Source: Gracilaria domingensis (lineage: Eukaryota; Rhodophyta; Florideophyceae; Gracilariales; Gracilariaceae). From it: 64,000 nt of DNA. This document shows, piece by piece, positions 30,735-54,975 of this stretch. The stretch spans positions 20,922 to 84,921 of the forward strand of contig VCMS01000243.1 in the NCBI GenBank assembly GCA_022539475.1, written 5' to 3'. How positions within the stretch are numbered: position 1 is the first letter of the stretch; the number at the start of each line of letters is the position of its first letter. The position numbers and the translations under genes are program-made. The notes below the pieces were generated by a model. That model was not told the origin of the DNA, searched no databases, and worked only from the letters and a program-made list of their open reading frames with translations.

Positions 30735-31376
30735 TCAGGAAGGCTTTGAACGATAAGCTTTCCGTAAATGCTCAAGTCTAAGGCTCATGTTGCTGATTTC
30801 CCTCTTCACAAGCCACTTTCTTCTGCTTGTGGGGCATTGAATACGTTTGACGTTGAGTATTTTCTGCATGAGCAGTGATGCTTGAGCACATTCACATGCG
30901 TTCAACGCGATTTGGAGCGTTCGCCGTGCCGGCCAGACATGTTTTGCGAGGCATTTCCTGTTTTGAGCGCAGCCGTTCCTCCCCATGCGAATCTGGGCAT
31001 GAAGCGCATATCTTTGATTGCATGCGAGGTTGTACTGGGTCCAAGCGGAGGCGGACGCACGACACTTGATAAATTTGTTGTTCCAGTAGAGCGAGCGAAG
31101 AATGTTGCGCTTCATGCGACGACATGCATGTGCGTGTTCGACAAGCTTGAGCTCTTGTTCCAGTGCGTTGAGCTTTTGCGTGGCTTGTTCAATGGCGGGC
31201 GGCTCCGCTAGTCGCGCCGCACGACTCGTGAGCAGATGCTGCAGGGCTTCCGATCCAGAAGCATGTTTGCCATTTCGTGCGTTGTTCAGCGATTTTGACA
31301 GCGACTCTGCACGTGCCGCGGATGCAACAGACCAAGTGGCGATTAGGAGCAGGAGAATGGAGAGCTGATTCGACAT
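30735..31376 (-). CDS. Family C1: secreted basic eight-cysteine protein
   Basis: 213 aa from the ATG at 31376, where a canonical signal peptide begins (MSNQLSILLLLIATWSVASA). An in-frame ATG at 31421 would bury it behind 15 residues. The mature part opens with a helical, coiled-coil-like segment. Eight cysteines follow with spacing C-x19-C-x13-C-x16-C-x5-C-x18-C-x-C-x17-C, including KCLAKHVWP and CEC. Lys/Arg content is high but lower than in the other three members, and the C-terminus ends at SKPS, lacking the PSVAPR tail. Paralogues lie at 34268, 43766 and 54331. This is the most divergent member. No known domain was recognised. Extracellular location is predicted; binding to polyanionic matrix is speculation. 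Confidence 0.7.
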   Translation of the reverse strand: MSNQLSILLLLIATWSVASAARAESLSKSLNNARNGKHASGSEALQHLLTSRAARLAEPPAIEQATQKLNALEQELKLVEHAHACRRMKRNILRSLYWNNKFIKCRASASAWTQYNLACNQRYALHAQIRMGRNGCAQNRKCLAKHVWPARRTLQIALNACECAQASLLMQKILNVKRIQCPTSRRKWLVKREISNMSLRLEHLRKAYRSKPS

Positions 31377-31687
31377 TTTCCGAGTGAGATTGGGCTGCGA
31401 AGCAGCTGACGGGGCTGACATTGATGAAACTGGACAAAGCAGAAGAAGAACATAAATGGCAGCGTATTTGTGGCGATGGTGCCGTTGTAATGCGGATTCC
31501 GCCAGTCTCCCAGCCCCAATTGGGTTGGACGCTTTCGGAGAACAGCTTCTTCTTCTGGATCACAAACGCCATTGGCGTTTGTGATCGACGTGGCAGCGGG
31601 CCCTACGTGTACACCTAACTTTGTCTTGTGTTTTTTATCTCTGCAGTGCAGAGTCTGCACTGAGCATTCTTCAATCGCTATCAGCAA

Positions 31688-33118
31688 CTACTGTACCTTT
31701 GGGGCTTGAGGCCAGGTCGCGTTGGCGGCGGCGGCGCAGCGCTCCGCCACGCGCGCCAGCACGGGCCGCAGCGCGGCCGGCGGCAGCAGCAGGTCCTGGC
31801 GGCGCAGGCACGCGCGCTGCGCGGCGTCGCGCGCGACAAGCACCGGCCGCCCGGCGCGCGCGGCTTGCCAGCGGCGCCAGAACGCGCCGCCCAGCCGCTT
31901 GGCCGCGGCGCACGCGCGCACGCGCGCGTCGTGCGGCGCGGCGACCACGGCGTGGTGCTGCGCGCCGGCCAGCCGCGCGTGGCGCGCAAAGCCGCCGCCG
32001 CGCAGCGCGAACGGCAGCGCCTCCACCACGTGGCTGCCGGCCGCCAGGAACAGCACGTTGCTCAGCGCCGCGCCGTGCGCCGCCAGCAGCACGTGCGTGC
32101 GCAGCATGGCGCGCAGCTGGTCGCGGAACGGCGCGCCCTCGAAGTGCAGCTGCGTGATGTTCGCGCGCAGCCGCTGCGCGCCGAACGCCGCGTGCAGCGC
32201 GCGCTGCAGCGCGCCCACGTCGAGGAGGCGCCGCGAGTGCCGCCGCGACAGAATCGACACGCGCACCACGCGCCCGTCCGTTCTGCCGCCGCCGCCGCCG
32301 CCGTCGTCGTGCGGCGCGAACGCGGCCGCGACGCGGCGCTGGAACGGCGCCGTTTCCGGCGCCACGCCCGCGCACGCGCTCGTCGCCACGCTGCGGAAGC
32401 ACGCGCCGTCGCCGCGCGCCGCGCGCGCGCGCGCGTGCGGCTCGACGCGCACGTCCGCAAACGCGGCGCGGAACGCGTGGTGCACGCCGTCGAACCACGC
32501 GCGCTGCCGCGCGCGCGCCGGCACCAGCAGCAGCGCCGGCAGCGCCACGCTGGCGCGCGCGAGGCGCTGCAGCGTGGCGGTGCGGATGGCCGGCCGCAGC
32601 GCGTACTCCACGTAGTGCGGCATGTGCGCCAGCCGCCGCGCGCGCGCCGGCGCGCCCGCCGCCGCCGCCAGGTACGACGCGTCCACCAGGTGCGCGCCGC
32701 GCGCCGGCGGCGCGCGCGCCGCGAACGCCGCGCGCAGCTGCAGGAAGTGCAGCGCGCCGCCGCGCGCGGACAGCTGGCACGAGCGGTTCGCGGCGTGGCG
32801 CAGCAGCTGCGCGCGCGCGGAGCGCGCGAACGAGACGTGCGCGGCGTGGAAGCACACGTCGCGCAGCGTGCACACGGAGCAGCGCTGCCCGGTGGGGAGA
32901 CGCACCTCGCGCCGCTGCACCGCCGGCGCCGGCGGTGGGGGGGCGCGCGCCGCGCAGACGAGCAGCAGCGCGGGCGGGAGCGCGAGCAGCGCGAGCAGCG
33001 TGCAGCGGCTGCGGCGGCGGCGGCGGCGCTTCATGGCGACGCGCTTCACGGCGACGCTCTTCATGGCGACGCGCTTCACGGCGACGCTCTTCATGGCGAC
33101 GCGCGGCGTCGCTTGCAT
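31688..33118 (-). CDS. Glycosyltransferase family 61-like type II membrane protein
   Basis: 476 aa. The cytosolic N-terminus holds a ten-residue repeat (MKSVAVKRVA twice) and an Arg run, followed by a signal anchor (about 39-58, TLLALLALPPALLLVCAARA), as in Golgi type II glycosyltransferases. The C-terminal half carries GT61/DUF563 hallmarks: SRRHSRRLL at 292-300, then an FRDQ helix, HGAALSN at 349-355 and HVVEALPF ending near 371. GT61 enzymes transfer xylose, arabinose or GlcNAc to glycans or wall polymers; the donor here cannot be told. The sequence has extreme GC with Ala/Arg inflation. The long plus-strand antisense frame is an artefact of this. The exact start among several repeated Met codons is uncertain. 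Confidence rests on the HGA...N and anchor motifs. Confidence 0.75.
   Translation of the reverse strand: MQATPRVAMKSVAVKRVAMKSVAVKRVAMKRRRRRRSRCTLLALLALPPALLLVCAARAPPPPAPAVQRREVRLPTGQRCSVCTLRDVCFHAAHVSFARSARAQLLRHAANRSCQLSARGGALHFLQLRAAFAARAPPARGAHLVDASYLAAAAGAPARARRLAHMPHYVEYALRPAIRTATLQRLARASVALPALLLVPARARQRAWFDGVHHAFRAAFADVRVEPHARARAARGDGACFRSVATSACAGVAPETAPFQRRVAAAFAPHDDGGGGGGRTDGRVVRVSILSRRHSRRLLDVGALQRALHAAFGAQRLRANITQLHFEGAPFRDQLRAMLRTHVLLAAHGAALSNVLFLAAGSHVVEALPFALRGGGFARHARLAGAQHHAVVAAPHDARVRACAAAKRLGGAFWRRWQAARAGRPVLVARDAAQRACLRRQDLLLPPAALRPVLARVAERCAAAANATWPQAPKVQ
33031..33103 (-). repeat. 30-bp tandem repeat in the GT61 N-terminus
   Basis: Two identical 30-bp units (33031-33060, 33061-33090) and a 13-bp partial third encode the repeated MKSVAVKRVA in frame. 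Confidence 0.9.
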
Positions 33119-33146
33119 CGCGCACCGCGCATCGCGGCGCGCGCGC

Positions 33147-33200
33147 GCGCGGCGTCGCTTAGAGCGCGGCGTCGCTTAGAGCGATCCGGCGCTTAGAGCG
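33147..33200. repeat. 17-bp tandem repeat upstream of the GT61 gene
   Basis: Units of the form GCGCGGCGTCGCTTAGA recur about three times, the last one degenerate (GCGATCCGGCGCTTAGA at 33181-33197), directly upstream of the start codon region on the minus strand. Confidence 0.75.
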
Positions 33201-34267
33201 CGGCGGCGGCTGTTGTTGTTCGCGATCGCGAGGCGTTATCGATATTGGCGCCAAGCTGCGCAGCCACGCGCAACACGTGCTTAAACTTCTAAGCCTTAAA
33301 GAGGTCGTATTTGTCGTCGAAGACACAGATTTGCTTGGCTCGGAGTGGCTTGTAACAGATGTGACGTCCGCAATGGATCAGGCTGCCTTGTGCTCAAGAA
33401 GACGAAGGAAGAGATCTCGTTCAGTGAAGAGGGCTACCTTTTGAACGCAAGAGAGGCGCTTGGGAGCGGATTCCCCAATAGAGACATCGTCTGCCACATC
33501 CAGCAGTTTCTTTCATGGCGTGCGACATGCCCTGCCGACAAAGTAATCTTCGCTCAACACATGCACTTTTGATTCAAGATATACCCCTTCGACTACTGGC
33601 AAGCGTAGAGTGGAACAACTACTATACCGAGCCTTAAGAAGCATGGCAGATAGACGCCAGTGCCGCGTGCCTTGTCATCGTTGCATGTCACGCGCTCTCG
33701 AACTTCGAGACTCTAGCGGGGATGCGAACTCGTTTAGCCTTGTAGGATAGGACGTCATCATCTTCATGTTCAAGAAACAGCATCTTACAACCGTACGGCA
33801 AGGTGCAAAAACTGTGCTAGTGTTGTTGAGCTTCGTCGCACTTGTCTGCGCCCTCGCGTTTAGTTTAGACGCACTGCGATCACGTCACGATGCAATCCTG
33901 CAAATTCCGAACATCCACGAGGCTACTTTCGTATAGGTTGAAACGACTGCGAGCGTGCCAACGATCCAACTCATCAGAACATCTCGACAATTCTGCTCTT
34001 TTAGTACGCTGTGCAATACGACACAAAGAGTCATATGTTGGTCATATGGATATGAACAGAAATCTCGTTTATACAAAACTTGGCCTCGGACACATGTTGC
34101 ATCCTGGTCCTCTAACAAGGGCGTCAAGCAACCGAGAAATTTGACACCTACGCGAGTTTCTGCCTTTCTATCTAACAAAGGAACAGCAGCCGAACATACT
34201 CAACCCAGAAGGCACGTCCCACCGTAGAAAGTTAACTACATTAGTACTCTCCGATACATCTGTCCTT
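33201..34267. other. Intergenic; small membrane-type frame inside
   Basis: GC drops sharply after 33230. A 56-codon plus frame (33766-33936, MFKKQHLTTVRQ...) has one strong hydrophobic helix and ends at a GTATAG that could be a splice site. It is not supported further. Confidence 0.35.
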
Positions 34268-34918
34268 CTATTTCGCTCTCGGAGCAACACTAGGATTAGC
34301 ACGAACAAACTTCTCCAGATAGTCGATCTTCTGCTCGAAGTCATGAATGTCATGCTTGATTTCCCATACATTTCTGGTCGTGGGGCACTTGATGGCCTTC
34401 ACCCTCCAAATCTTTCGCATCATCTTCCATAGACGAGTGCACTCACATGCCTTGTTCGCCATCCTCAGCTTCCATTGCAGGGGCCACACATGTTTGGCAA
34501 GACAATTCTTATTCCTCTTACACATCCTCTTTCCATTTGAAATCTTCTTCTTCAACCAGTTCTTCTTCCCGCATTCGGAGTTGGCATTTCGGCGACGGGA
34601 GCGAGGACATCTAATCGTTCTTTTCTTCCAGTAGAGTCTGCGTAACATCCTTCTCTTCTTCTTCTCACAGAACCTAGCATTCTTACTCTTTTCAAGTTCA
34701 TCCTCCAATTCTAGGAGCTTACGCCGTGCGCGTTGCAAGGCAGTTGCTTGCCACGTACGAACTGTACCATCCAATGCCTGGGTATCACGAAGCGATGCAT
34801 TTGACATACTCTCTTCTTTCGAAAGTTCATCAACATTGGAATGGCGGTTGCCAACGACAGTGACGGTGATAGAAAACATAGTAAGAATAACAAGGAAAAG
34901 AGCCGTAGCGTTTTTCAT
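34268..34918 (-). CDS. Family C2: secreted basic eight-cysteine protein
   Basis: 216 aa from the ATG at 34918. A signal peptide of about 20-23 residues (MKNATALFLVILTMFSITVT) is followed by a Ser/Asp-rich propeptide-like stretch. A charged helix (ATALQRARRKLLELEDELEK) comes next. The cysteine core is C-x19-C-x11-C-x16-C-x5-C-x18-C-x-C-x17-C with NCLAKHVWPLQWKL and CEC. The C-terminus is PSVAPRAK, shared in form with C3 and C4. Very Lys/Arg-rich. A textbook TATA box 115-123 bp upstream supports an internal start over the frame-initial ATG at 35020. Probably extracellular with four disulfides; function unknown. Confidence 0.75.
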   Translation of the reverse strand: MKNATALFLVILTMFSITVTVVGNRHSNVDELSKEESMSNASLRDTQALDGTVRTWQATALQRARRKLLELEDELEKSKNARFCEKKKRRMLRRLYWKKRTIRCPRSRRRNANSECGKKNWLKKKISNGKRMCKRNKNCLAKHVWPLQWKLRMANKACECTRLWKMMRKIWRVKAIKCPTTRNVWEIKHDIHDFEQKIDYLEKFVRANPSVAPRAK

Positions 34919-35030
34919 GGCAGGAAGAGTTGCTGAAGAAGATGAACAAGCCCAGTGGCTGATGAGAACGAATGGTCGAGGTTCGGCGCTGATGGGAGGG
35001 ATAGAGTTGGGAGATCGCACGAGACGCTCT

Positions 35031-35042
35031 CCCTTTTATAGA
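35031..35042 (-). promoter_or_regulatory. TATA box of family C2
   Basis: CTATAAAAGGGA on the minus strand, about 115-123 bp upstream of the ATG at 34918. Confidence 0.65.
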
Positions 35043-38000
35043 CTTTCGCGTCTGAGAAAAAGATGGCGTTTCTGGCTTGCAAAGAGCCAAAGGCGGTAGA
35101 TTCCCGCGTTTTGCCCATCTAGGGCCGGCGTTGCTGGAGTTGTATGGATGATACCACATTGGGAAGTTCCGCTTTAAACAGCGTGGTTCATGAACTGAGG
35201 CGTTTTGGGTCCTTTTCAGCCGGGCATTGTCTGAAAGGATCTGAAATGATGTTCGAATGGGCAGGTTGAGGAGAATTGAGTCGATTCAATCATGCTGAGA
35301 TGATGACGTCCCACGCAGAGGTGGATTGTGGGTGAATTGCTTTTCCCGCTTCCAGTTATTCCTTGCGTCCTGTCTGTTTTCGCGTATTGAAAACTGATGT
35401 GTCTGAAAGTCAGGCCGCATGAACATGCGTCTCTTTCGAGACGGGCCTGTCTCGTCCATGACGCTTGAGCAGCACAGTCGGCCTTCCGAAGAAGGGTGAT
35501 TTGTGCTTCGCGGTGACCGCCATCATGATGGCATCATGGCGTCCTCCTCTTGACGTTTTCCACACTAAAAACGGAGCTACCCTTGGTACGTGCACAGTGC
35601 GTTGCACCACGCCGATGATATACACGTGGCCACCAACAAACCGAACAAAAATTACGAGAAGCGGGTCTCGCAAGGCATGCGTTGCGTAGAGCGGATCTGC
35701 ATGCGAAGATCTTCATGGCCGTCCACCTTCGATGTTTCTTTGTAGGGATCTGGAGTCCTGGTAGCTTTTGTTCGACAACGAGTACGACGGCATCTGGAAG
35801 CTCATGGTACCGAAGGTAGCCCTACCATCAGGCTGGAGGGACACCATCCGGCATGCATTGCAAAATTGGCCCGTGTTGTAACCACTTCAGGAAAGTCGCG
35901 TCAGGGGCGAGTCATGGTCAGAGATCATCATCGGCGACCATTGTTTCTTGCATGAAAGAAAGGTCTGAAGACTTAAAATGTCGATGCTCCGCGCGATACT
36001 CAGATAAATGCTCTTTGCTCTTGGCCAATCCGCTCGGAAACCAATTGCATAGATCGCTTTGATGTAAGACTCATGCAGATTTCTCCACGTCCTTCAGCTG
36101 CAAACGCTGAATATGGGCGAGACGTGTCTGCAAAATCTGAGTACCGCGTCGAGGTTCTTCCGCGACGGACGTATCTGAAGTGCATATGACGAGTGGAAGA
36201 AGACCACGAAGGTGTTTCGCTGTACGAAAGCCAGGCTAGCTTTCGCATTCGCTGCGTTGTTTCTTGATTGCAGCCATCGGATAGCAGCAGCAATACGTCC
36301 CTGGTCAGTACAGATCAGTGCTGGGTGTTGGGATAGATATCGACTGGTCCCAGAGCGGTTAAGGACGAACTGATAACTGGAAATCACGAGACGGGAGAGC
36401 TGTTGATGTGCCACAGATTATCGAGGATCGCGGCTTTTTCTTACGGCAGATTCCTGGCTACGGATTACGATTTTGACGCAATCAATTCAAAGACTGGTGC
36501 TTTTCGGCTTGATGAGATGAGAAGAACTGGTCTTGAATTTCTGCAGTCATCGTTGGTGCCAGTGACAACATGCCAGCTCGTGCGTTTCAAAGACTGATAC
36601 CAACGATGTCGACAAGACGGAAGCTTTGGTTGATTTTCGGGTTGATGTTGCCACGACCTTGGAGGACAGAGATTGTGCTCTGTCGTGTACCACCATCATG
36701 GAGGCGGGGAGAAGACAGAAAGAAAGGTAACGGCAAACCAATGAGGCGTATCAAATGTTTTCAGATGCTTTGCACGCTATCTACGCTAAACGAGTCTCAT
36801 TCTGGAAGAAGACCCCTTTCCGAATAAGGACTATACAACGGTGAGGTGTTGCTTCCATCCGGTCGCACCTTAACTGTACTAACTCAAGAAACAGTGGACT
36901 ATCGGAAGGAATTTCGGAAAGCCATTGGGTGAGGAGAAGATGGATGTGACTTTGTACCGATCAGCATCTTTTCTGAAACCCGTCTTCATAGGGTCCCGGC
37001 TCCGAAGCATGCAGTTTTTGTCCCAACGTATATAAGTAGGAAAGAGTCATCACGCTTCAGCGCTCTTCGCGAAGAGAACTCATGCCGTAAGGAGATCTCA
37101 GACGCTAGTGATCGAACCCTATCCCATCTTGTTGATAGATACTTGCTCTGTGCTTACTTGTTCGGACGAAGGCCGTCATCTTATTTGATCAGGGTATTAA
37201 CCTACAACTTATGGGTCTTCCGCAGATTAGATCATATCAGGAGTTCAAGTTGGAGGGATCAACTTCGTGAAGCTGGAGCGGTCGGAGAAGATCCTGAAAT
37301 ACGAAGGCATTCCACATCTGTTACGCCTTGTTTTACAACTGAGCCAGGCTGCCGTTGTGCACCGGTTCTGAGGGAAGCCGAGGTCCATAATTAAAACTGT
37401 TTGGAATCACCTTATCGTGATCGAGATTTCATGGTACTTGTTTGAAGCTTTTCAAGATATAGAGCAATGAAAATGGCTTCAAAGGAGGTCAGTGCAGAGA
37501 TACAGGGAGTGAGATGCAAGAGATACAGATGTGACATGCACTCTCTTAAAGAGCGAATCAAAGCTCCATTCGATGTATTGTTGGGGGAGACGCTTATCAC
37601 ACATGTCTTCGTATCACCAGCACAGCTCTCGATGGTTTTGTCGGTGTAAACATCAGGGAAAGCGCGGCGTGTGCGTGGTAAACCCATGCCGTCGAATCTG
37701 TTTGAGACAATAATAATCCGTTCATTCTCCGATACAACTCACAACTGATGAGCCGCTGCTGGCAGTATTGACGTCGAATTTCTCTGAACGGGGTATGCTG
37801 CGATTTCAGTACTTCACCGACACCTCAATTGCGGCAGCCAGCCTTACCAAGCACTCGGAAGACATCGCAGTCACGCTAGGCTCTGTTGTCGCTCTGGTGT
37901 TTAGTATCCCGTAGCCGTCGCGATGAATGATCCTCTTGTTTGGGTTGGATCTCGAACTTAAGTCAATGGGAGTATGTTGACGTTGATTTGTCAAGGTTTA

Positions 38001-38873
38001 CTCCCATGGATCGCTACAAAAGCCTCGGGGCGCACCCTCGCTTTTTGTGTCGCTGTTTGCTCCATCCTGTGGCTTGCGAGCTCGTGTTCACCTAGTGGGC
38101 TCTCTACAATCGTTGCTGACATGTTCGTACCCCCTACGAGATAGAGTTTAAGTTTCTGCTCTTGTGGGCGATCGTTATTCACGGAATAGTTCCATTGCGT
38201 TTGTCAACTCGCGGGCCGAGACTGAGTGAATCTTTTTGGGATGCGCCATGAGAGATACGCATGCGCCTGTTCCATCAACCCATCTGGAGTATACGTGAAG
38301 CTTGCAAGTCCCGAAATGACAGGGGCGTGTAGAGCATCATGTCATCGTGAACGCGTGGGGTTCGAAGTTTTGTATCGCAAAGAATCTCAATGTGTCATGT
38401 ACACCACCGGAAGACGACTGTTGACCGTGGACGACGATATTTTAAGTGAGATGTAACTGCTCTGCTGCTAAGAATCCTCTCTCTCCCTTGGTGAATGCAC
38501 AAGCCTAATACCAACTGGAAGCGGAATGTATCTCCTGAAAGAAATGTTCTGCAGCCATGGACCAATCTTAGTCTTCAGAATGTCACTTGAGCCCTAAAGC
38601 CGGGATTCGCGCGACCAAGTACCATGTCATAGATACGACCGAGGTTGTTGTGTACGTGGCAGCCGATACGAGCATGATTCATGGTTCTGCAATTCGTCTA
38701 CCAGGTGATGCATCGCTCGACGTGACCACGATGCACGATGAAGACTTTGTAGTAACTGTACGACAAGTACGCAAGATCAAGGTTATCTTTTATATCTCTA
38801 TCAACTCTATCAAAACGACATTAAGATTAGAGCTTTGAGAATAATGAGTCAGAAAAGCCGTGAAGAGAGCCCT
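35043..38873. other. Gene-poor 3.8-kb stretch
   Basis: No coherent gene. Several 40-95-codon frames with protein-like composition occur near 36400-36830 and 37080-37390 in changing frames, including one pair separated by a single in-frame TAA near 36730. They may be relics of decayed genes. A TATATAAG lies at about 37029. Confidence 0.4.
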
Positions 38874-39947
38874 CTACACAGTGCGGAAGACGACGCACTT
38901 GTTCTCGGAACGAGGGACTCCGTTTCGGTTCACTACACGATGCTCTCTGATTTCCTGGAAGTGAGTGAAGTAAACTCGAACACAACGATTCTGAGCCACT
39001 TGCGCCTGGTCACCTTGGAAAGTTTGATGGCCAATTCCAGAACCGCGATCCTGTGCAACCCAATATGGCTTGAAATGGGTCGGAGTGAATCGCTGGGAGC
39101 CAAAGTCCGTGATGGGGCTCGCATTGCCAGCCTCGTCGATGAACTCCGGAACGATTCCGTTCATGTTCAACGTTCCAAGCGCATAGGTCACATCCTTTGG
39201 AACCACACCAGTGGTGAAAGCAGTGTCCGGTTGTTCTGCGGGGATATCGAAGGTCGCCAGGCTCGTCTCTCCACTGAAAGTGAATTGGCATTCTTCAAAT
39301 GCTATGAGGCAGGAGGGATCATCGATAAAACCGCAGATGGCTTGCGAAACCTGAGGAATTCTTTGGTTGAGGTCGTCGAAGTTGGCGTTGATGTATAGTT
39401 GTGATCGGGAGGCAATACGCAGTAAGAAGTCCTGGCTCACGTCGTTTCCAATTCCAACGGTGACGATCTCGATTCCCGCTGCCTTCGCGGCATCGGCAGC
39501 TTGTTCGGATTCAGGTACATCTGAGGACCTTGTCTGTCCGTCGGTGATAAGTACGATGGCATTATGGTCGCCTTGAGCACTTTGAAGAATGTTTTTGCAT
39601 TCGTTCAGACCATTTGAAATGACGGTTCCACCTCTGAACAGGCGGGGTGCCCGCACTGCTGTTTGGAAGACATTCAAGTCGGCAACAAGGTTTTGAATGG
39701 TTTGGGCAGCGTCCGAGAACGCAACGGCCGAATTCAATGGGTCTGTTGCAGACGTGGTTTCAATTTCATTGGATATGGCAATGACGAAATTCTGTTCCCG
39801 TTCATATTCGGAGTCGTTGATAGACCCAGACTGGTCGATAATGTAGCACACGTTGTTAATTTCGCATTGCGGGGGAGCCGGAGTCGCCTGCACGCACAAG
39901 GTCGTAATAGCTGCCAAAGCGGCGAAGGTGAAAAAACGGAAGACCAT
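38874..39947 (-). CDS. Secreted von Willebrand factor A-domain protein
   Basis: 357 aa from the ATG at 39947, which starts a signal peptide (MVFRFFTFAALAAITTLCVQA). A vWFA domain spans about 33-205 with an intact MIDAS: DQSGS at 38-42, Thr in GGT at 106-108 and ITDG at 134-137. A divalent-cation-dependent adhesion site is therefore expected. The C-terminal part (about 210-357) holds paired cysteines and a beta-rich stretch (TYALGTLNMNG, RCVRVYFTHFQ) that I do not recognise. The open frame reaches 40175, but the extension lacks features and lies above the CTTAA-type promoter element. By family, an extracellular binding or matrix protein. The plus-strand frame 38835-39398 is its antisense shadow. 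Confidence 0.85.
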   Translation of the reverse strand: MVFRFFTFAALAAITTLCVQATPAPPQCEINNVCYIIDQSGSINDSEYEREQNFVIAISNEIETTSATDPLNSAVAFSDAAQTIQNLVADLNVFQTAVRAPRLFRGGTVISNGLNECKNILQSAQGDHNAIVLITDGQTRSSDVPESEQAADAAKAAGIEIVTVGIGNDVSQDFLLRIASRSQLYINANFDDLNQRIPQVSQAICGFIDDPSCLIAFEECQFTFSGETSLATFDIPAEQPDTAFTTGVVPKDVTYALGTLNMNGIVPEFIDEAGNASPITDFGSQRFTPTHFKPYWVAQDRGSGIGHQTFQGDQAQVAQNRCVRVYFTHFQEIREHRVVNRNGVPRSENKCVVFRTV

Positions 39948-40065
39948 CACGAGAAGAAAGGATTGAATGTAGATGAACACTCTAATCGATCTCAAACAGC
40001 CTGAAGCAAGGCTTTGGAAGCTGGAATGAATAGAGAGATTCGCATCATCGCGGTGGGAACTTTGT

Positions 40066-40075
40066 TTAAGTAGAA
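40066..40075 (-). promoter_or_regulatory. TACTTAA-type promoter element (vWFA gene)
   Basis: CTACTTAAAC on the minus strand, about 120 bp upstream of the ATG at 39947. Confidence 0.35.
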
Positions 40076-42168
40076 GTGAGCTACTGAAGCTGGTCTTCCT
40101 GAACTTCCGAGAAGAGCGGAGCAGTTGTTGCCGATTTCGAGATATATTCATCATCTTTGCTGTCTTATGCGTCACATAATATAAGCTATTACTTCTGCTT
40201 CAAGATACACAGCTAGCTTTTATTGTTAATGACAAGGACGTGGGATCAGTGCCAAATCTCGTCATGAAGTTCTCCTTCTAGATTGACTAGAGCCTGAATT
40301 TGATACCTACTCGATTGGCTTCTCTGACAAGAAAAAGCGTTTGAAGCACAGGGGAAGCAAAGCAAAACCATGAATGGAAAGAGAAGAAGCCAATTTCGTT
40401 CGAATCGTTGGACTCGGTTTGTAGGAGAACTTAAGCAGTTCATTTCTTTCAGTCCTGTAGTCCACATGCATTCTCATATGCTGCAGTACTCTCGAGAACT
40501 TAGATGTATGCAGGGTCCGCGTTTGGAAGGAGTTATCCCTTGAAGTCGCTCGCATTGCTGCAGCATGGGAGCTAGGAGTTTTGATGACATGCCTTCTTAT
40601 TGCTCATGTACATATCGGGTCTACACGCTGGTGTCTCCAGGCAAACTCTTTTGAGGTCCTAATCTCCATGGATCGGGAAAAGAGCGACTGCTCAGTGGTG
40701 CGTCAGATACACAAACGAAGTACAACAAGCCTGAGTCTGGGAAGCACCCATGGTAACAGAGCGGATCAATTCCTATTCGCTCGCTCACGTGACGCGAGGT
40801 GAAATGCTCGGTCGTGTCACTCCATGGTGAGGTTATTCGCACCTACGGGTTATGCCATTCGGCGCTGACGTGGAAGTGCAGATGTTTTGTCTGATGTGTT
40901 GGCAACGGATCAGATCGGTTGTTAACTTCTACCCAGGGGTACTCCTCTCAAGATTTTGACGGCCCAACATACACAACACACACGCAGTTCAAACCATTCA
41001 GAGTTTGTTTGACTTTCCGAGCCGGAAGAGGCACTGACAGCCCGAAGCTGTCCGCGGCAAGCGAGGCGTTGTGAGAGGCTGTTCTCTTGAGGTTTACGAG
41101 GCGACAAGCAGTCTTCTGTCCTGTCTGTAACATACTGCACAGGTCAAATTCATTCAGGATATCATGCCAGTTACACTATCGCGCATTAGCCTTCTACTGC
41201 ATGATCCGAAGTGGACGGACTTATGCCACTGATTGGAGCCATGGGAGACAAAAGACGATGAAATAACAAGGACGACTTCGGAGGCCATGACAGGGACATT
41301 GTCTTAGAAGTTACACGACGGGGCCTATCAGTATCTGCACACGAACGTCTGTATGTTGACAGCAGATTTCAGTTAACTGGAACTACGTTTTCTTTTTCTG
41401 TGGCTTCCGATAGCGCACAGCAGGGCACGTTGTAAACGGACTAAGATTCCGTGGAACTTCAACGCGCGATCTTGACAGGCGTGGAGAGATGATATCTTTG
41501 TCTGGCCCTTCATCAGATTCTTGACCTCTTGCTCACGAATATGGACGGCGATTCAAATAACCAGCAACTAATTTGCACTTGGCAGAGCCTCCGATTTGCA
41601 CTTTGTACTCAATCTGAACAGTTCCAAAGGGACTACACGTCCCTGTTTTCGACATAAAACTCTTCTTCTTCCTAAGCTACAGTAGAGCATATAACACAAA
41701 CGTCAAATACTGGACTCCACGGTCCTTCCAGAAGATCTCCAGACTTTTGAATCTATATCGGCTGCCTTCGACGTCAAACTCTGCAAGTATACGTACGACC
41801 TTCGCCACAGCCTCAAGTTAGGACCCCGTCACAGTGTTTAGACTTCGGATCAAAATGTTGGAACGAGACTTTTTTCAGCCTTTTGATCTGCTAAGCCTTG
41901 ATCTTTCTGTTACAATTTAAGTCACCAAGGGTACACTCTTTGCAAATGAACTTTTCTTGCAGACACGTAGTGTTCTCACTGAGAACCTGTCATGCAACCT
42001 ATGTTCCATTTTGCCTAACTATTCAGCAGCGGACACTAGGGACTCACCATGTTCATCATATTCTTCGCTTACATTTGTAGCCTTACACGGCTCGCTCACA
42101 GGAAACTACTAAAAGAGCCTTCGTATTTGCTACATCTTGCTTCACTTCAATCTCAGCCCAAACCAGAG
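40076..42168. other. Intergenic, no gene seen
   Basis: Only short frames; no recognisable product or RNA gene. Confidence 0.45.
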
Positions 42169-43650: not shown

Positions 43651-43765
43651 ATGATGTTCAGATGAATCGGTCAGTCCAGTTCCTCCTCACCATTCCCTTA
43701 GTCAATTAGGTTAACATCGACGAAGTCATTCATCAGTTCCTTCGGCCTCCCCTCGATCACCGAAG

Positions 43766-44419
43766 ATGAAGTTCTCGGTTCTGAACGTAATCATTCTATT
43801 CTCCATTGTGGTGTTTACATCTGCGGTTCATATCGATACTGATATCGTAGGTGTTTCAAACGATTTATCACGTACATCGTCGGAGTTTGAGAACATTGCA
43901 GTGCATTGGTCTTCTCGTGGATGGCAAGCTTCCTCCCTCCAGCGCGCAAAGAAGCGCTTACGTGTACTGAAGATGGAGATAAAAGGGATTCACAAAGCTT
44001 ACGAATGCCAGAGGAAGAGAAAATCCCTATTGCGTAGCATGTATTGGAAGAAGATGCATTCCAAGTGTAAAATGCCACAGTGGCGTGCTAAGCGAGATTG
44101 CAACAAGAAGGGGGGTCTTCAAAAGAGGCTGAAAAGAGGCAAGAGACTTTGCAAGCGGTGGAACAAAAAATGTCTTTCCAAGCACGTATGGGCTGTTCAA
44201 TGGATGCTTAAGAAGGCCGAAAACGCTTGTAAGTGTGTGGGTGCTTCAGACATGAAGAAGGCAATTTGGAAAGCGAACGCATTGAAATGTCCGAAGACCA
44301 GACCGCTGTGGGTTGTGAAGGCTGAGCGAAAGAAAATTGAAGGAAGAATCAAGTACTTCGAGAAAATGCTTCGTCCGAAACCCAGTTCTGCCCCGAGGCC
44401 AAAATGGAAGAAATGGTGA
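43766..44419 (+). CDS. Family C3: secreted basic eight-cysteine protein
   Basis: 217 aa. Signal peptide MKFSVLNVIILFSIVVFTSA, then a short acidic/Ser-rich stretch. A charged helix (SLQRAKKRLRVLKMEIKG) leads to the core C-x19-C-x10-C-x16-C-x6-C-x18-C-x-C-x17-C with KCLSKHVWAVQW and CKC. Tail PSSAPRPKWKKW. The mature protein is extremely basic, with lysine the dominant residue. It lacks any enzyme motif. Best aligned to C2 and C4; all four share the x19, x16, x18, x1 and x17 intervals. Its frame starts directly at the signal peptide, which fixes start choice for the whole family. Extracellular; function unknown. Confidence 0.8.
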   Translation: MKFSVLNVIILFSIVVFTSAVHIDTDIVGVSNDLSRTSSEFENIAVHWSSRGWQASSLQRAKKRLRVLKMEIKGIHKAYECQRKRKSLLRSMYWKKMHSKCKMPQWRAKRDCNKKGGLQKRLKRGKRLCKRWNKKCLSKHVWAVQWMLKKAENACKCVGASDMKKAIWKANALKCPKTRPLWVVKAERKKIEGRIKYFEKMLRPKPSSAPRPKWKKW

Positions 44420-45950: not shown

Positions 45951-45952
45951 TG

Positions 45953-46002: not shown

Positions 46003-46010
46003 TTTAAAAG
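46003..46010 (+). promoter_or_regulatory. TATA-like box, TTTAAAAG
   Basis: Lies about 230 bp upstream of the ATG at 46238 and directly after the hairpin. Confidence 0.35.
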
Positions 46011-46237
46011 TTGCCGGTAGTAATGCAATCGCGTTGAACCACCCGTGTAGTTCTCACACTCTCATAACCAAGTAGGAGGGCTAGAGGGCTACCCCCGTAG
46101 CGGGGTATCTATTCCTGGCGCTCATACGCCCTGCTAACTGCCGAGCTCATTAGTGTTTTCTGTAGTTTGAGCGAGACCCCCTGGTTACTCGGGCTCTCAT
46201 CCGTCTTCTACACTCTTCAATCTTCATCACAGCTGAG

Positions 46238-47854: not shown

Positions 47855-48058
47855 GTCCGAGAGCTCTGGCGCCTACCCTGCGGTACCTTCGGTACCAGAG
47901 GGCCATCTTTCTTTCCTCGCAGTTAGTGGTACCGAGCAGATTTCGAACCAAGTGTACAGGCTACCGGCGGTACGGCACAAACTTTGTACAAGGTTATCCA
48001 GGGGTGACTCTCACCAGGTGCCTGGCACCGTGCCAGTGGCACGTCTATCTTTTTTGCC

Positions 48059-48069
48059 ATTTTATAAAC
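48059..48069 (+). promoter_or_regulatory. TATA-like box
   Basis: TTTTATAAACT lies about 35-40 bp upstream of the ATG at 48100. Confidence 0.35.
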
Positions 48070-48099
48070 TTTTTCATTGGAATGATAGGAAATGATTTA

Positions 48100-48756
48100 A
48101 TGATGCTTCAGTTTCCCTCCAACATTGAAGGAAGACTGCAACGATTCGTCGCCGAAACGCCGCATGCTTTGTTGCCACGCTCATCTGATTGGCCCATTAT
48201 TACAACCAACGTCGCAACGAGATACGTGACGCCTCTCCTGGATGCCTTGAGCTGCGAGCTGTTGCCAGTCGGAGCTGACCGCCACCAGCGGCCATTCACA
48301 GCTGCGATACTGCTGGAATTGCCCACAGCTTTCGTTGGAGCTCTCCATCAGACCGTCAGCATTCGACTCACCCGTATACGTCACTATGCTCGTTTTGGGT
48401 TCGGAGTTCGAGCTTCGGACCTGCTTGCGTGCCCCTTGCCTCCCCCTTTCTTCTGCGTCCTTGCTAGCACAGCTCGTGGCAAAGCTCATGAATTCATCTC
48501 TTCGAATATTTTCCCTTCATTCGACGTCAGTGTGACCCCGTTTGGTTCTCCCAAAGTACGCGTCATAACTCTCTCGCGGCTCCTGAAGGCTGCCGAGCTA
48601 CCCAATATGTCCGGCCTTCTTGCTTTGCAACCAAACACACAATGCCACTCAACCTTCGCCGAGAGCAGAGTACGAAAAAGGCCCATTCGAGTGAATTGTT
48701 TGACTCCTAGATTGACATGTAGTCGGTACTCGGCTCCCTTGGCGAGCGGCAAATGA
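48100..48756 (+). CDS. Unknown protein (218 aa), moderate support
   Basis: An open frame of over 900 nt spans 47851-48756. The TATA-like box at 48059 points to the ATG pair at 48100/48103 as the start (MMLQFPSNIEGRLQRF). The product has no signal peptide. It contains alternating hydrophobic and polar stretches (WPIITTNVATRYVTPLLDAL, FTAAILLELPTAFVGAL) and a basic C-terminus. I recognise no domain. The length of the open frame at moderate GC makes chance unlikely, but short antisense frames overlap it. The downstream kinase gene starts about 240 bp after its stop. Confidence 0.4.
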   Translation: MMLQFPSNIEGRLQRFVAETPHALLPRSSDWPIITTNVATRYVTPLLDALSCELLPVGADRHQRPFTAAILLELPTAFVGALHQTVSIRLTRIRHYARFGFGVRASDLLACPLPPPFFCVLASTARGKAHEFISSNIFPSFDVSVTPFGSPKVRVITLSRLLKAAELPNMSGLLALQPNTQCHSTFAESRVRKRPIRVNCLTPRLTCSRYSAPLASGK

Positions 48757-48991
48757 ATTGCATGGTACGCTCCCTCGCTCGTACAAAAGCCGGTCAAGCT
48801 TCTACCCGTTACCCTCTTGTTCTCAATCTCTGCAACCACTGCGGCCTGTATTGCCTTCTGCTATACATCTGTTTTCTTGAGTCACCGGCTTCCTGGACAT
48901 ATTTGCTTTCTCTTTTTCGTTTTCATCTCGTTGCGTTGGACTTCTGTAGCACATCACTCTCACTCCCGCGGAAGGCAAACTCATAATCATC

Positions 48992-50422
48992 ATGACTAGC
49001 TATCCCGTTATAGCCAAAAACAAAGATATGTATGACTGTATTGGTTGGGTGAAAGTCCGCCACTCTTTATTCGGTCCTCGAAAAGTATGGTACATGCGAC
49101 TCATGGGTTCTACTCTCTCGTTGCACGAGTCAAGCGAGAAAGCGATTGCATTGGAGTACTCAGTCATTTCGTGTAAGGTTGTCAGCCATATTCTCACATG
49201 GTGCTTTACCGTGAAGCTATCAAATGGGCAAAAGCTTCGCGTTTCCTGCGACTCTAAGAAGGAAGCAAAGCAATGGAAGGAGGCTTTGCGACGAGCCTCA
49301 AACCAAGTCTTTAGTGAAGAGTTCGCACTGCTTGAAGCTATCGAGGAGACAAACGGTTGTACGATCTTTAACGCCGTGGATATCTACGACCAGTCGAAGG
49401 TTAGAGTACAGCGGATAGACAGGGATCCATTCGACGCGCTAAATTTCGAGAAGACGCAAGCTCTATGTCGACAGCTGTACGCGGTAAGGAACTTGGGCCA
49501 TCACAATCTATTGTGGGCAATAAGTGTCTTCCACGAGGCTGACTACGCGTACATTGTCACCAAAAGAGTGAAGGGGAAAAGGTTAAGTAATGTTCTCGCG
49601 GAACACGGTGGTGCGCTTTCTGAGTCAATGACCCGATACCTTGTGAAGCAACTTGTGGAGGCAATCTCTTACATGCATCTGAAAGGATTTGTACTTCGAA
49701 AGGTCACCCTAGATAACATTTGGTGTGACTATTCTGACTCGTCGGATCCAAGAATAATCCTCGCAGACTTTGCCGATGTCTCTTTTGTGGATGACGAGGA
49801 AGATTTGCGGATACGACATAAGGTTGGTGACACGAGGTACCATGCACCGGAGGTTGCGACGGAAGTAAGTTACAATGCAGCGGTGGATTTGTTTGCTCTG
49901 GGTGTGTGCGTGTATCGAATGCTGTCCGGTTCGTTCCCTTTGGAGAGCAACGTGCAAAGACTTTCTCAGATGATAGAACAAAGGGAACAGGAACTCGCCT
50001 TCGGAGAACGCGTGTGGTCGTCAATTTCGGCGGAGGCCAAGGCGTTTGTCCGCTCACTTCTTCAGCCTTCCTGGTTGAATCGTATGACGGCCGACGAAGC
50101 AGAAGAAGACCAATGGTTCGAAATAAGCATTTCAGAAAGCGAGAAGAGTATCGAACCGAATGCCGAAAGCTTCATGCCAGAAGAAATCAAGGAAGCGGTA
50201 GATGAATCGGATCCTGAGCGCGTGGAGAGCATATCACGAGTACAAGACATCCAGGCTCTTCTACAAGAGAATCAAGCTGTGTTGTCTCCGCTTATGATAC
50301 GATTGCTAAGTCCCCTTTCGGAGGAAGCGCCTCTAAGCGTGAAGTCGGCAGTGGACACATTTGCGAGCACATTGAAAGAGCGAAACATTGTCGTCGAGAA
50401 GCCATCTCTGCCAGCCGTTTGA
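48992..50422 (+). CDS. PH domain fused to a pseudokinase
   Basis: 476 aa. Residues about 15-103 form a PH domain (GWVKVRHSLFGPRKVWYMRL... ending in a Trp-containing helix, EAKQWKEALRRA). Residues about 112-385 have a protein-kinase fold: a C-helix-like stretch, YIVTKRVKG hinge, SYMHLKGFVLRK, an activation segment with APE intact at 285-287, and a D-LFALGV F-helix. Catalytic residues are lost: HRDxKxxN reads LRKVTLDN (Asp to Lys at 237), DFG reads DFA (259-261), the VAIK lysine is absent (VRVQRI) and the Gly loop is degenerate. So it is probably catalytically dead, acting as a scaffold or allosteric partner recruited to phosphoinositide membranes. The layout recalls Akt-like PH-kinases but the core is CAMK/AGC-like only in outline. 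The C-terminal 90 residues are acidic. Confidence 0.8.
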   Translation: MTSYPVIAKNKDMYDCIGWVKVRHSLFGPRKVWYMRLMGSTLSLHESSEKAIALEYSVISCKVVSHILTWCFTVKLSNGQKLRVSCDSKKEAKQWKEALRRASNQVFSEEFALLEAIEETNGCTIFNAVDIYDQSKVRVQRIDRDPFDALNFEKTQALCRQLYAVRNLGHHNLLWAISVFHEADYAYIVTKRVKGKRLSNVLAEHGGALSESMTRYLVKQLVEAISYMHLKGFVLRKVTLDNIWCDYSDSSDPRIILADFADVSFVDDEEDLRIRHKVGDTRYHAPEVATEVSYNAAVDLFALGVCVYRMLSGSFPLESNVQRLSQMIEQREQELAFGERVWSSISAEAKAFVRSLLQPSWLNRMTADEAEEDQWFEISISESEKSIEPNAESFMPEEIKEAVDESDPERVESISRVQDIQALLQENQAVLSPLMIRLLSPLSEEAPLSVKSAVDTFASTLKERNIVVEKPSLPAV

Positions 50423-51604
50423 ATTCATTGTTTACTTGTAAAGCTGTTCCATTCCCTGGTCGTTGACGTGAAAGTTCTTAGCAGATGGGAATAGCATTTT
50501 CACAGTACTCATATTCATATATCTAACGCTCATTTCCCTTGGTAGTGAACGCACTGTGTTTCCATGAATGTAGGGGCCAAGCATTTCGCGAAGGGCAGAG
50601 GATAATCGTCACATACAAAAGTAATTCTTCTAGCTCACTGATCATAAGGAGCCTGGTATGACTGAGTCGCAATTCCTTTGCCGCGGCCGTGTTCAACCCA
50701 GCAGGAGAGAGCCGAGAGGTCACCGAAAGGTGATGTTTACAAATGATTGGTGCACTTGTCAGTTCGGAAAGTCTTTTGCACCAATCGCCGCGCTCAAGGT
50801 TATATTTTTCAATTTTCGCAACTGCGTGAAGGTATGATAACTTACAACCTTCAGAACAAGTGAAGTGATTTGGAGACACTTGCCGATTTGCCAGCTCAAA
50901 AGAAATCCTTTCGTCTCGCCACTTATCAGGTATCACAGATATGAGAAAAGCAGAAGTTCACCTGTTCCGGGGTCGGACCGGCGTTTAAGACAGAATACTT
51001 GTTCTGTCGTGAAACGATTCTAATATAGAACTATTCGTGACAAATTTGGAACCGAATAATATTTGCCTACTGCCAAGCCGCATTGGTCGAAAATATTGCA
51101 GTATTCGACGACGTTGCCACCTTCCAAATCCCGAGTATCGGATGAGCTCAGGCTGCGATGAAGGCGGCGCACATGCACAAATTTGCTGAAATCTGTTTCA
51201 TAGCGTACTTCCAATGCTCACTACACGTAATGTACTTGTACACGTATCTACACACGCAATTGCAAAGCAGACCCGAACCAAAATGGACCTCGTCAGATAA
51301 AAAACTTGTCGAATTGTGCACACGAATCATCACTTTCTAGGATGAAAACTCCATTTATTCATCATCGCAACCCTCGAAAAGGACTTGTAGGATAGTGAGA
51401 GGCCATACGAGAGATAGGAGTAATCCAAGTTTGCAGCAGGTTCGGAGTTTGAAACCTCGAATCATTCGGTTCTCAGCTGGAGTAACTTTGCCGTAGAAAT
51501 CGGTTTTCAAGGAGTCTCAGAGAAGTTCTCATGCCACGTCGTTGTACAGCCAGGAAAGAGGATGGAATGGGACGAATGAAAGAGTGGTCCTTTGCGAGAC
51601 GATG
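50423..51604. other. Intergenic, no gene seen
   Basis: Short frames only. Confidence 0.45.
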
Positions 51605-51614
51605 AATATAAAGC
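51605..51614 (+). promoter_or_regulatory. TATA box of the 51.7-kb secreted protein
   Basis: AATATAAAGC lies about 70-77 bp upstream of the ATG at 51682. Confidence 0.5.
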
Positions 51615-51681
51615 AAATCATATCAGTCGGAGAGCGCGGCATGGTGACGTCTTAGGCCTAGAGAACACCCCTTTCACCACT

Positions 51682-52422
51682 ATGGCGACTCTAATAAGTT
51701 TGGTTTTTCTCCTTGAGTGTACTACTATTCTTCAGAATGCCTTCAAAGTTCAAGCCACAGCAATAATCAACGAGAATGTACTGGATTATGGTTCCTTGCC
51801 CCATCATTATCAAAGAATGAGTGAGAATGCGAGAAGTCGAAGATATCCCGTTTCAAGTGCTCAAGTGTCCTTCGAGCAACTAGTCAGTACCGGACTTGTG
51901 GTATCTAAAGGTAGCAGTGGTGTCCTAAATTTCAACATAACCCTCAACGCCGTTCAATCCTCACTACTTGCAAGCAGTGATCGAGACTTCATGCAACTTC
52001 TTTCTCCAAGCGAGAGATCTGGATACGAGGACATGAAGACGAGCTATAATGGAAATCTGGAAGTTCCGATGATGGAGTGGCTTGGAGTAAGCCTTAATGG
52101 AGAAACGTCCCGTAGAGATATGAGACGTTCTCGCCGTCGTCAACCAAGATATGACGAAAAGTCTGAAGTTGTAAATCGGATCTTGTCTGAGCAGATTACC
52201 TCCATGATTCAGATCAGTGGAACACTCATGGCAGAGGGCGTTGGAATTGTCCCCACAACCGTGTTCGCCTTTATCCGCATTGCCCGAGTGACATTGGAGG
52301 ATGGATCTACTATGACGGTGTTGTCTTCAAATCCGAATGACCTGATTGCTGCCAATTCTTGTGGACACGAAGCCCCATCCAGCATGCTTACGCTCGATAT
52401 AATAGATCTACCGCCATTGTAG
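51682..52422 (+). CDS. Secreted protein of unknown family
   Basis: 246 aa from the ATG at 51682, giving a signal-peptide-like start (MATLISLVFLLECTTILQNA). The open frame begins earlier at a TTG, but the TATA box at 51605 and the hydrophobic start support the ATG. After the signal comes a polar region with one sequon (NIT). An Arg-rich dibasic stretch (SRRDMRRSRRRQPRYDEK) at about 152-169 could be a proprotein processing site. The C-terminal part is beta-strand-like (VPTTVFAFIRIARVTLEDG). Only two cysteines are in the mature chain. No family was recognised. Confidence 0.6.
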   Translation: MATLISLVFLLECTTILQNAFKVQATAIINENVLDYGSLPHHYQRMSENARSRRYPVSSAQVSFEQLVSTGLVVSKGSSGVLNFNITLNAVQSSLLASSDRDFMQLLSPSERSGYEDMKTSYNGNLEVPMMEWLGVSLNGETSRRDMRRSRRRQPRYDEKSEVVNRILSEQITSMIQISGTLMAEGVGIVPTTVFAFIRIARVTLEDGSTMTVLSSNPNDLIAANSCGHEAPSSMLTLDIIDLPPL

Positions 52423-53992
52423 AACAGTAGATGTTATTAGTCCTCCTACAATAAACCTGATGGAACCTTCTGCTCGTCATCCAGCTGCCTCTAAGGCCGA
52501 AAAATCAAACCACCAGATAGACCATTTGATATCGTACCGTTTGGCTCTTCAAGCTTGCCTCATTCACGTTCCCTATCCCATCAACTACTCATGAGTGCAC
52601 TAATAGGATAAGATTTAGGCTGAAAGAACTCTGTTGCAAGACGAGGCACGAGCCCTGATAGTGTAACTTTACCTGCCTGTGGCTGGCTGCCACCTGGGTT
52701 GGTGACACCTTTCGAAGCGTCTGGCAAAACAGTCATTGCGTAGTCACCAATATGTCACCTAAGACGATAACAAGCTCTCGTGAGCTTTACATGAGGGCTA
52801 AAAAGGATACACCCAGAACGGCCCCAAAAAATTGCAACTTCGAAAGAGGACCCATTCGCCGTCAATGCGAGTTAATATTATTATGTGTCTGCAGTAGTAA
52901 CTCTACACGTACCTTTGACACCGTCGGTAGGTCAGGATCACTAAATAAAATCGTGCGATCGCAGAAAGAATACCCCACAGGGTAGGAGCTCAGGTTTTCT
53001 TAAACGGCTGCATATCTGTTGTGTCACTCTTAGTCGTTTCAGGTTAGAAGGCTAGCCTTGCTAACATGTACTCATTAAATCTCTCATGGGGCTGTATTGT
53101 TACGTGTAGATGAATCCGTTCTGGTCTCCAGAAGAAACCGTGCCCTGCAACAGGTATGGGATGAAAGAACATCCTTGCAAACACGGCAGAGAGATTTAGT
53201 AACCTACAGGCTGTACCATGAAAAAAACGGTTTGCAAGAACTTCGCAGTGCGTTTTAGAGCGGCACAGTATTAAATAGAGAAAGGGATCCCATCCGAGAA
53301 GATATTTGAATGGGTGCATGAAGCCGTTCATAAGCCCGGTATTCCAGTATAATTACGCATCCTGCTCGCGCCATATTGCGTGAGTGTATTCTCTACATTT
53401 GTTTACACCTCAAAATTTCACCCTACGTGAGAAGTCACGCTTCCGCACCATTCCGATATCTCATCGCAGCTGCAGTTTGCATATCCCTCTGGTATGACAC
53501 GGTGCAATCGTTGAAACTACGCACGCACAGTAAGGTTACCTTCGTAAATAACGGTTGCAAGTCAGATCAGATCTGCGTGGAAACGTTCAAATTTTGACAT
53601 TTTTCTGCCAGACCGCCCTCGTTGGCAGGGTAGAAGGCTTTCACACAACTGGAGATGAGGATGCACACACCCCTTTGTAGATAGTGTGCAGATAATGAAG
53701 TATCTGTGTTGCTGAAACGCTTTGCCTGCAACCCAGCCTAGATTTAAATACATCCTCAGCCGCTCTTGAAATTGAACGTTACTGGTTCAGCCGAAGTTCG
53801 CGTTATGCAATATTGATGAGTCGTTCAAAAAGATGGACTCTTTTTAAGCGCTGGTTTCAAATACTTCAAAATGAGTTCAACACATGTTATCGTTTGTTGG
53901 TCAGGCGTGACGTCGGCTAGATTTCGTTACCAGTTCGTGGTAGGATAAGTTCAACTACGTGTACCAGAAGAAGGGCTGTAGACAGAGAGCGG
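52423..53992. other. Intergenic, no gene seen
   Basis: Short frames only. A TAGAAGGCTAGCCTTGCTA palindrome-like motif lies near 53045-53064, and a related AAGGTTAGAAGG motif near 30475. Confidence 0.4.
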
Positions 53993-54000
53993 TATAAAAG
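53993..54000 (+). promoter_or_regulatory. TATA box, probably of family C4
   Basis: TATAAAAG lies about 335 bp upstream of the ATG at 54331. This implies a long leader or a leader intron. Confidence 0.45.
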
Positions 54001-54330
54001 TTGTAAAGGCAGACTGCGAGTGTCGATGGTTCCTCTCCATATCGCCCGAGTGAGATTCTCTCAATTCGGTTCACTTCGAGCCATCCGCCTCTTACTTGTG
54101 TCATTTACATCACTTTCCTTATCGTTCTCTCCTTCCCATTGTTGCCCCGGACTCTATCCTCTCAAACTCAATTGGGATTTGATTGCGTTCCCACAAGATA
54201 GACTCCTTAGTACTCCCTGGTCAAGATATTGACGAAAGCCTCAGTCTCTCTGTTTGAACTGGTGTTTCTTCCTATATTCTCTTTGTCGCCTTGGACACAC
54301 AGCTCCCATCTCGCTTCGATCATTTTAGAG

Positions 54331-54975
54331 ATGAAGCTCACAATGATGTTTACTGCCCTGCTGATCTCTGCATCCATTGCAACTGCCACGATTTTTCCAT
54401 CTGAGTCCTTCTATACGGAACCTGCTGATGGAACTGTTATCTCATCTGCATTCTTGCCGGTTTTGACGACTGTTTCTGTGCGTGGATGGAAAGAAAGTGC
54501 GTTAGAACAGGCTAAAAACGAGCTTTACGAACTGAAGAAGGAGCTAAGAAAAGTGGAAGGCATCTATCGATGCGATAAGAAGAGGTCAAAAACGCTTAGT
54601 GCATTGTACAAGGAGAGAAAATCATACAGGTGTGTTAGTTACGAAATGCGTGATGCGAATGGGTGTCACAAGAAATATGGTCTGCATAGTGAGGTAAAGC
54701 GAGGGCAGATGATGTGCAGAAAGAATATAAGCTGTAAGAAGAAGTATGTGTGGCCTCTTCAGTGGAAGCTGAAGCAGTTGACTAAGTCTTGTGACTGTAA
54801 AAAGGGAGCCTCAGTAATGAAGATGATATGGAGGACCAAAAAGATTCGATGTGGAAAGGGAAGGAATGCTTGGAGAGTAAGGTTGGAACTGCAAAAGTTG
54901 GAGAAGCGAATTTCGTACTTAAAGAACGCACTGTGGGCGAAGCCTAGCGTTGCTCCGAGACCTAAATGGAGATGA
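54331..54975 (+). CDS. Family C4: secreted basic eight-cysteine protein
   Basis: 214 aa from the ATG at 54331 (signal MKLTMMFTALLISASIATAT). An acidic/Ser spacer is followed by a helix (ALEQAKNELYELKKELRKVEG). The core is C-x19-C-x10-C-x16-C-x5-C-x18-C-x-C-x17-C with YVWPLQWKLKQL and CDC. Tail KPSVAPRPKWR matches C3 closely. The x5 interval carries an NIS sequon. The upstream frame extension starts with TTG and has no features. Extracellular, very basic, function unknown. Confidence 0.8.
   Translation: MKLTMMFTALLISASIATATIFPSESFYTEPADGTVISSAFLPVLTTVSVRGWKESALEQAKNELYELKKELRKVEGIYRCDKKRSKTLSALYKERKSYRCVSYEMRDANGCHKKYGLHSEVKRGQMMCRKNISCKKKYVWPLQWKLKQLTKSCDCKKGASVMKMIWRTKKIRCGKGRNAWRVRLELQKLEKRISYLKNALWAKPSVAPRPKWR

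Follow-up and report, generated by a model that had tools for sequence, protein, structure and literature searches.

Five homologous genes of the red alga Gracilaria domingensis encode basic proteins with an eight-cysteine framework and a hydrophobic N-terminus

Five homologous genes encoding basic proteins with a common framework of eight cysteines were identified in the assembly of the red alga Gracilaria domingensis (GCA_022539475.1). Four lie in a stretch of 64,000 nt of contig VCMS01000243.1 (positions 20,922 to 84,921, forward strand), hereafter the window, and one lies on another contig. Judged from their sequences, these five genes are real and conserved. We tentatively favor a role, with a probability of approximately 0.4, in which they encode disulfide-stapled, cationic, helical proteins that would be secreted, would have no enzymatic activity, and would bind the sulfated galactan of the red algal wall. 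The window genes were named P0001 to P0004 in coordinate order, and the gene on contig C69 was named P0005:

30735..31376, minus strand: member 1 (P0001), 213 aa, with a hydrophobic N-terminus, a linker, and the eight-cysteine core (30735-31226); the C-terminal end is ...SKPS, without an APRPKW tail.
34268..34918, minus strand: member 2 (P0002), 216 aa, same layout as P0001, core at 34268-34765, tail NPSVAPRAK.
43766..44419, plus strand: member 3 (P0003), 217 aa, same layout as P0001, core at 43913-44419, tail KPSSAPRPKWKKW.
54331..54975, plus strand: member 4 (P0004), 214 aa, same layout as P0001, core at 54472-54975, tail KPSVAPRPKWR.
Contig C69, stretch L006 1501-2079, minus strand: P0005, 192 aa, with no internal stops.

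The four window frames had been proposed as a new family in a preliminary description, and they are indeed intact at these positions, with no internal stops and products of 213, 216, 217, and 214 aa. An in-frame ATG is found 15 codons upstream of the listed start of the gene at 30735; the listed ATG leads into a hydrophobic stretch at the N-terminus. With P0003 as a query, the other three window members were matched with E values of 1.4e-41, 2.9e-36, and 2.2e-25. The homology is nearly full-length, and pairwise identity among the window members is 28-44%. The C-terminal motif KPSxAPRPxW is exact in three of the five members and partial in P0002.

Each of the four window proteins contains exactly eight cysteines, all of them in the core, which measures 161-169 aa across the five proteins. 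The spacings are 19-13-16-5-18-1-17 in P0001, 19-11-16-5-18-1-17 in P0002, 19-10-16-6-18-1-17 in P0003, and 19-10-16-5-18-1-17 in P0004, which reproduces the framework first proposed, C-x19-C-x(10-13)-C-x16-C-x(5-6)-C-x18-C-x-C-x17-C, in all four. A six-frame scan of the window with a slightly wider pattern (last gap 16-17) returned only the places of these four genes, and the same cysteine pattern did not occur in any of 100 mononucleotide shuffles of the window. All eight cysteines are also kept in P0005 (19-13-16-6-18-1-16), so that the framework is found in 5/5 members.

The whole assembly (77,892,253 bases in 680 contigs) was searched with P0003 at E<=0.001 and with the other four proteins at E<=10. 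Each query recovered P0001 to P0004, the copy of P0004 (54331) carried by contig C343, and the gene on C69. The latter was found with P0003 at an E value of 1.6e-17, while P0001 and the C69 gene match each other weakly when taken by themselves (E 0.067 and 0.0019). The single stops reported within some of the matches are the genes' own terminal stops where the coordinates were compared. A sixth place, on contig C134, was detected with the P0001 query only (E 0.395, with one stop) and was excluded from the count. The copy on C343 (5195-5836) is identical to the P0004 gene, and this identity spans 3,000 bases. Moreover, over its first 9.9 kb, C343 is 99.4% identical to window positions 49134-59037; the differences amount to 8 mismatches and 45 gap openings (mostly indels). 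The identity continues to the end of the window (4,970 columns, 99.8%), after which the layouts of the two contigs diverge; overall, C343:2-14869 corresponds to window 49134-64000. The most plausible reading of C343 is that it is redundant or stems from an alternative haplotype, and five distinct genes were therefore counted. This number is a lower bound because the assembly search disregards introns and scores the best candidates only. The family had been described as having four members; the four window genes are homologous as claimed, but the assembly holds a fifth.

P0005 is the most instructive member for what is conserved. Its aligned sequence is 23% identical to that of P0001, and neither the long linker nor the KHVW block is present. 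A KHVWPLQW-like block had been presented as a family feature; it is exact in P0002 (34268) and occurs as the variants KHVWPARR, KHVWAVQW, and KYVWPLQW in three members, but its absence from P0005 means that it is not family-wide. The core of P0005 starts with RGWQ, as does that of P0003, and its C-terminal end (KPSAAPRPAW) resembles the tails of P0003 and P0004. The gene has a G+C content of 82%, reaching 95% at third positions, and the basic residues of the core are mostly arginines (37 Arg, 6 Lys). P0005 is basic in 21 of the 33 columns in which at least three of the four window proteins are basic, versus 22 of 129 elsewhere (Fisher p 4e-7). This enrichment, carried mostly by arginine, indicates that the conserved feature is positive charge at particular sites, rather than lysine itself. 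Likewise, P0005 is hydrophobic (alanine included) in 28 of 35 conserved hydrophobic columns, versus 48 of 127 elsewhere (p 8e-6). As a side observation, there is a sharp local peak in G+C content (77-81%) at the C69 paralogue and the adjacent gene, which was recognized by eye as DXS-like (L015 4001-7000).

The codons show constraint at the protein level, and these proteins have been maintained by selection. Across the five genes, both TGT and TGC are present in 8/8 cysteine columns. In the six window pairs, codon position 3 is identical in 0.31-0.40 of codons, versus 0.48-0.71 for positions 1 and 2. The contrast is weaker in the four pairs that include P0005 (position 1, 0.30-0.35; position 2, 0.38-0.51; position 3, 0.28-0.32), and conservation is lowest at position 3 in 8 of the 10 gene pairs. 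When the four genes were oriented and compared together with 1.5 kb of flanking DNA on each side (E<=1e-3), the only duplicated DNA outside the frames, apart from the overlap between the flanks of members 1 and 2, was a stretch of 76 bases shared at 72% by members 2 and 3. Because the flanks hold almost no shared DNA, the duplications appear to be old.

The strong positive charge first noted in these proteins was borne out, as the cores have a net charge of +24 to +48, the highest being that of P0003 (+48), and a pI of 10.3-12.0. The window proteins had also been described as carrying signal peptides, and a hydrophobic N-terminus is seen in 5/5 members. Mean hydropathy of the N-terminal 19-residue stretch is 1.72-2.41, and no 19-residue stretch past residue 25 has a mean above 1.33. 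None of the five C-termini bears a KDEL or HDEL endoplasmic reticulum (ER) retention tail. Structure prediction, which the preliminary description had called for, returned a mostly helical fold: AlphaFold2 gave a mostly helical core with a pLDDT of 85 and a pTM of 0.52, and helices were present in both models, one of which is that of the P0003 core. The core is predicted to consist of long helices with short connecting loops, probably in an antiparallel arrangement.

We then compared the family with known families and folds. A significant Pfam match, set beforehand in the preliminary description as grounds for rejection, was found for none of the five proteins: the only rows were End3, DUF2986, and TPD52 for the four window proteins (E<=1) and KxDL for P0005 (E<=0.1), all under cut-off. 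This agrees with the claim that the proteins differ from defensins, thionins, EGF domains, and knottins, since no such Pfam match was obtained for these families, which should be represented in Pfam. The best NCBIfam match of the four window proteins had an E value of 0.012 and 15.9 bits, versus a cut-off of 128. Pattern searches yielded 82 matching stretches in viral contigs and, with one peptide pattern, 37 in bacterial and archaeal genome contigs, with no confirmed relative in either set. In the PDB, the best sequence match of P0003, the only protein used as a single query, had an E value of 0.24, and the best of four rows obtained at E<=10 with a five-protein profile was an engineered coiled-coil chimera (E 0.047); both were read as chance. 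Fold searches gave no matches at E<=0.001, either in the PDB with both models or in a viral fold library with the first model. The best viral row was a 773-residue entry with an E value of 0.036, a probability of 1.00, a TMq of 0.59, and an rmsd of 18. No published description of the family was found by title or abstract start among the open-licence papers listed, which is weak evidence of absence.

The closest systems include antiparallel helical domains such as the PI3K p85 iSH2 domain and SMC coiled coils, with no PDB fold match at E<=0.001. The brown algal EsV-1-7/IMMEDIATE UPRIGHT family resembles this one in being algal and cysteine-rich, but it is built of short Cys/His repeats rather than of one helical eight-cysteine core; no Pfam match was found for the members studied here, although Pfam may lack an EsV-1-7 model. 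The eight-cysteine motif (8CM) of plant non-specific lipid transfer proteins (nsLTPs) also bears a likeness, as these proteins are basic, helical, apparently secreted, and contain eight cysteines including one C-x-C. However, an excerpt of PMC9832785 gives the 8CM as C-Xn-C-Xn-CC-Xn-CXC-Xn-C-Xn-C, and the adjacent CC pair has no counterpart here, cysteines 3 and 4 being 16 residues apart in 5/5 members. Cysteines 6 and 7 make up the CXC in 5/5 members, in contrast to cysteines 5 and 6 in the 8CM. Furthermore, the core of 161-169 aa contrasts with the 6-10 kDa given there as the typical nsLTP size. The nsLTP fold has four to five helices enclosing a lipid cavity, with four disulfides; of these features, helices are predicted in the present family. 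The missing CC pair and the CXC at cysteines 6 and 7 therefore rule out membership in the nsLTP/8CM family. No LTP-type Pfam family was matched at E<=1 (four window proteins) or E<=0.1 (P0005), and the nsLTP count that the excerpt lists for G. domingensis is 0. As far as tested (Pfam, NCBIfam, and bacterial, archaeal, and viral contigs, with other eukaryotes outside the comparison), this is an orphan family with a new framework. In kind, it is ordinary, since cysteine-rich secreted orphan families are common in eukaryotes.

In the mechanism that we propose, the putative N-terminal signal peptide would direct the proteins into the secretory pathway, and the eight cysteines may pair into four disulfides and so hold the helices together as rigid, basic rods. 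These rods would attach to the acidic sulfated galactans in the wall or mucilage, and the bound proteins could act as matrix linkers or coat proteins; the linker at the N-terminus and the KPSxAPRPxW tail at the C-terminus could be spacers or docking parts. We envisage the window genes as old local duplicates and the single GC-rich gene on C69 as a more distant branch. Within this chain, the least secure step is the choice of a polyanion as what the charge binds. Little appears to be known about the proteins of red algal walls. Matches to the Pfam phycobilisome family (12 in the assembly, of which 8 near-complete and 2 partial ones are on contig C680) are consistent with a red alga; phycobilisome proteins are also carried by glaucophytes and cryptophytes. 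Production of acidic sulfated galactans by red seaweeds is described in an excerpt of PMC7511586. A more specific version of this proposal, in which the family represents an undescribed extracellular helical fold with four disulfides, including one CXC, that serves as a dedicated basic linker of the sulfated-galactan wall, seems doubtful.

Several points weigh against the favored role and the evidence assembled for it. High positive charge would also fit antimicrobial or nucleic-acid-binding roles, and secretion is deduced from hydropathy. Confidence in the predicted arrangement of the helices is limited (pTM of 0.52 for both models), and a helix prediction is easy to obtain for a sequence rich in Lys, Arg, Leu, and Ala. 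Hydrophobic periodicity reaches p<0.05 in one of the four predicted helices (H3, 0.0055 uncorrected; H1, 0.106; H2, 0.316; H4, 0.094). Relative to the hydrophobic face, one of the six in-helix cysteines lies at less than 30 degrees, three at 48-65, and two at 110 and 161. Taken with the weak periodicity, these angles leave a simple core-facing staple unsupported in the model. As for the codon signal, position 1 is less conserved than position 3 in the P0001-P0005 pair (0.30 versus 0.32), and the two are equal (0.32) in the P0004-P0005 pair.

A role in defense, in which secreted, cationic, disulfide-stabilized helical proteins would disrupt the membranes of microbes or attach to polyanions on their surface, is possible but somewhat unlikely. 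It would account for the strong positive charge, the eight cysteines, and the hydrophobic N-terminus, and a small multigene family with divergent members (28-44% identity in the window) would be in keeping with it. However, the core exceeds the typical size of antimicrobial peptides, a periodic hydrophobic face is predicted in only one helix of four (p<0.05), and no Pfam defense-peptide family was matched. Moreover, no title among the listed papers on Gracilaria antimicrobial peptides and defensins points to such a family.

It is important to note that an N-terminal signal indicates entry into the secretory pathway and is not proof of export. The proteins might thus stay inside the cell, in the lumen of the Golgi, vacuole, or storage or packaging granules, and pack acidic polysaccharide or polyphosphate into a condensed form that is exported later. 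The absence of an ER-retention tail is compatible with this scenario, and the shared KPSxAPRPxW C-terminus (exact in 3/5, partial in P0002) could serve as a sorting tag; on balance, we regard it as fairly improbable.

Less probable again is a secreted helical bundle that inhibits or partners a wall enzyme, by analogy with the plant pectin-methylesterase and invertase inhibitors (PMEI-type). Plant PMEI-type bundles are secreted, helical, and disulfide-containing, with a number of cysteines that differs from that of the family described here. The members share with them a secreted-looking, helical, cysteine-rich character, and a G+C-rich gene with a Glyco_transf_61 domain (31688-33118, minus strand, E 3.6e-09) lies between members 1 and 2, although neighborhood is a weak guide in eukaryotes. 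On the other hand, the PMEI-type inhibitor model did not appear in the Pfam scans of the five proteins, no inhibitor family was matched, and such a role would not need extreme basicity. Finally, that these are chance open frames or pseudogenes has next to no probability, given the nearly full-length homology with E values down to 1e-41, the invariant framework in 5/5 members with no internal stops, and the synonymous variation in the eight cysteine columns together with the codon-position signal.

This compact family with its clear framework offers a testable handle, with five genes and a short diagnostic cysteine spacing. If binding to galactan is true, a protein linker will have been identified in an industrially important matrix; if the linker proposal is true, this would place a protein part in a matrix usually treated as polysaccharide only. 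If the galactan role is false, this is another cysteine-rich secreted orphan family.

The remainder of the window contains several other features. A sex-determining-region origin of the window, considered in the light of PMC12502185, was rejected, as no feature seen here links the window to such a region. Rfam gave no matches on the window. Between members 2 and 3, the gene at 38874-40154 (minus strand) encodes a von Willebrand factor A domain protein (E 3e-18). A second cysteine-rich domain, C-terminal, of approximately 80 residues, starting with SFLGRVG or TFLGKVG and containing a CC pair, is present in the products of 7528-8496, 10439-11332, and 17181-18623 (all minus strand) and twice on contig C79; it has no Pfam match in the two shorter proteins that carry it. 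The gene at 25248-27455 (minus strand) encodes a full-length Beta_propel protein (PF09826, E 4.1e-124). In the 17181-18623 protein, a related segment (34% over 251 aa) is accompanied by the cysteine-rich domain at the end, so that this gene looks like a local fusion. Two related proteins (31% identity), encoded at 15484-16482 and 19660-20664 (both plus strand), look by eye like multi-spanning membrane proteins and have no Pfam match at E<=0.1. Their family is large: at E<=0.001, the assembly yielded 43 matches, some of which are pieces of one gene. In 2-kb bins, G+C content is 66-68% at 12001-14000 and 32001-34000 and 43-56% in the other bins. The 58760-63316 region (plus strand) contains a retroelement with gag-like (zinc-knuckle-like) and reverse-transcriptase-like frames, recognized by eye only.

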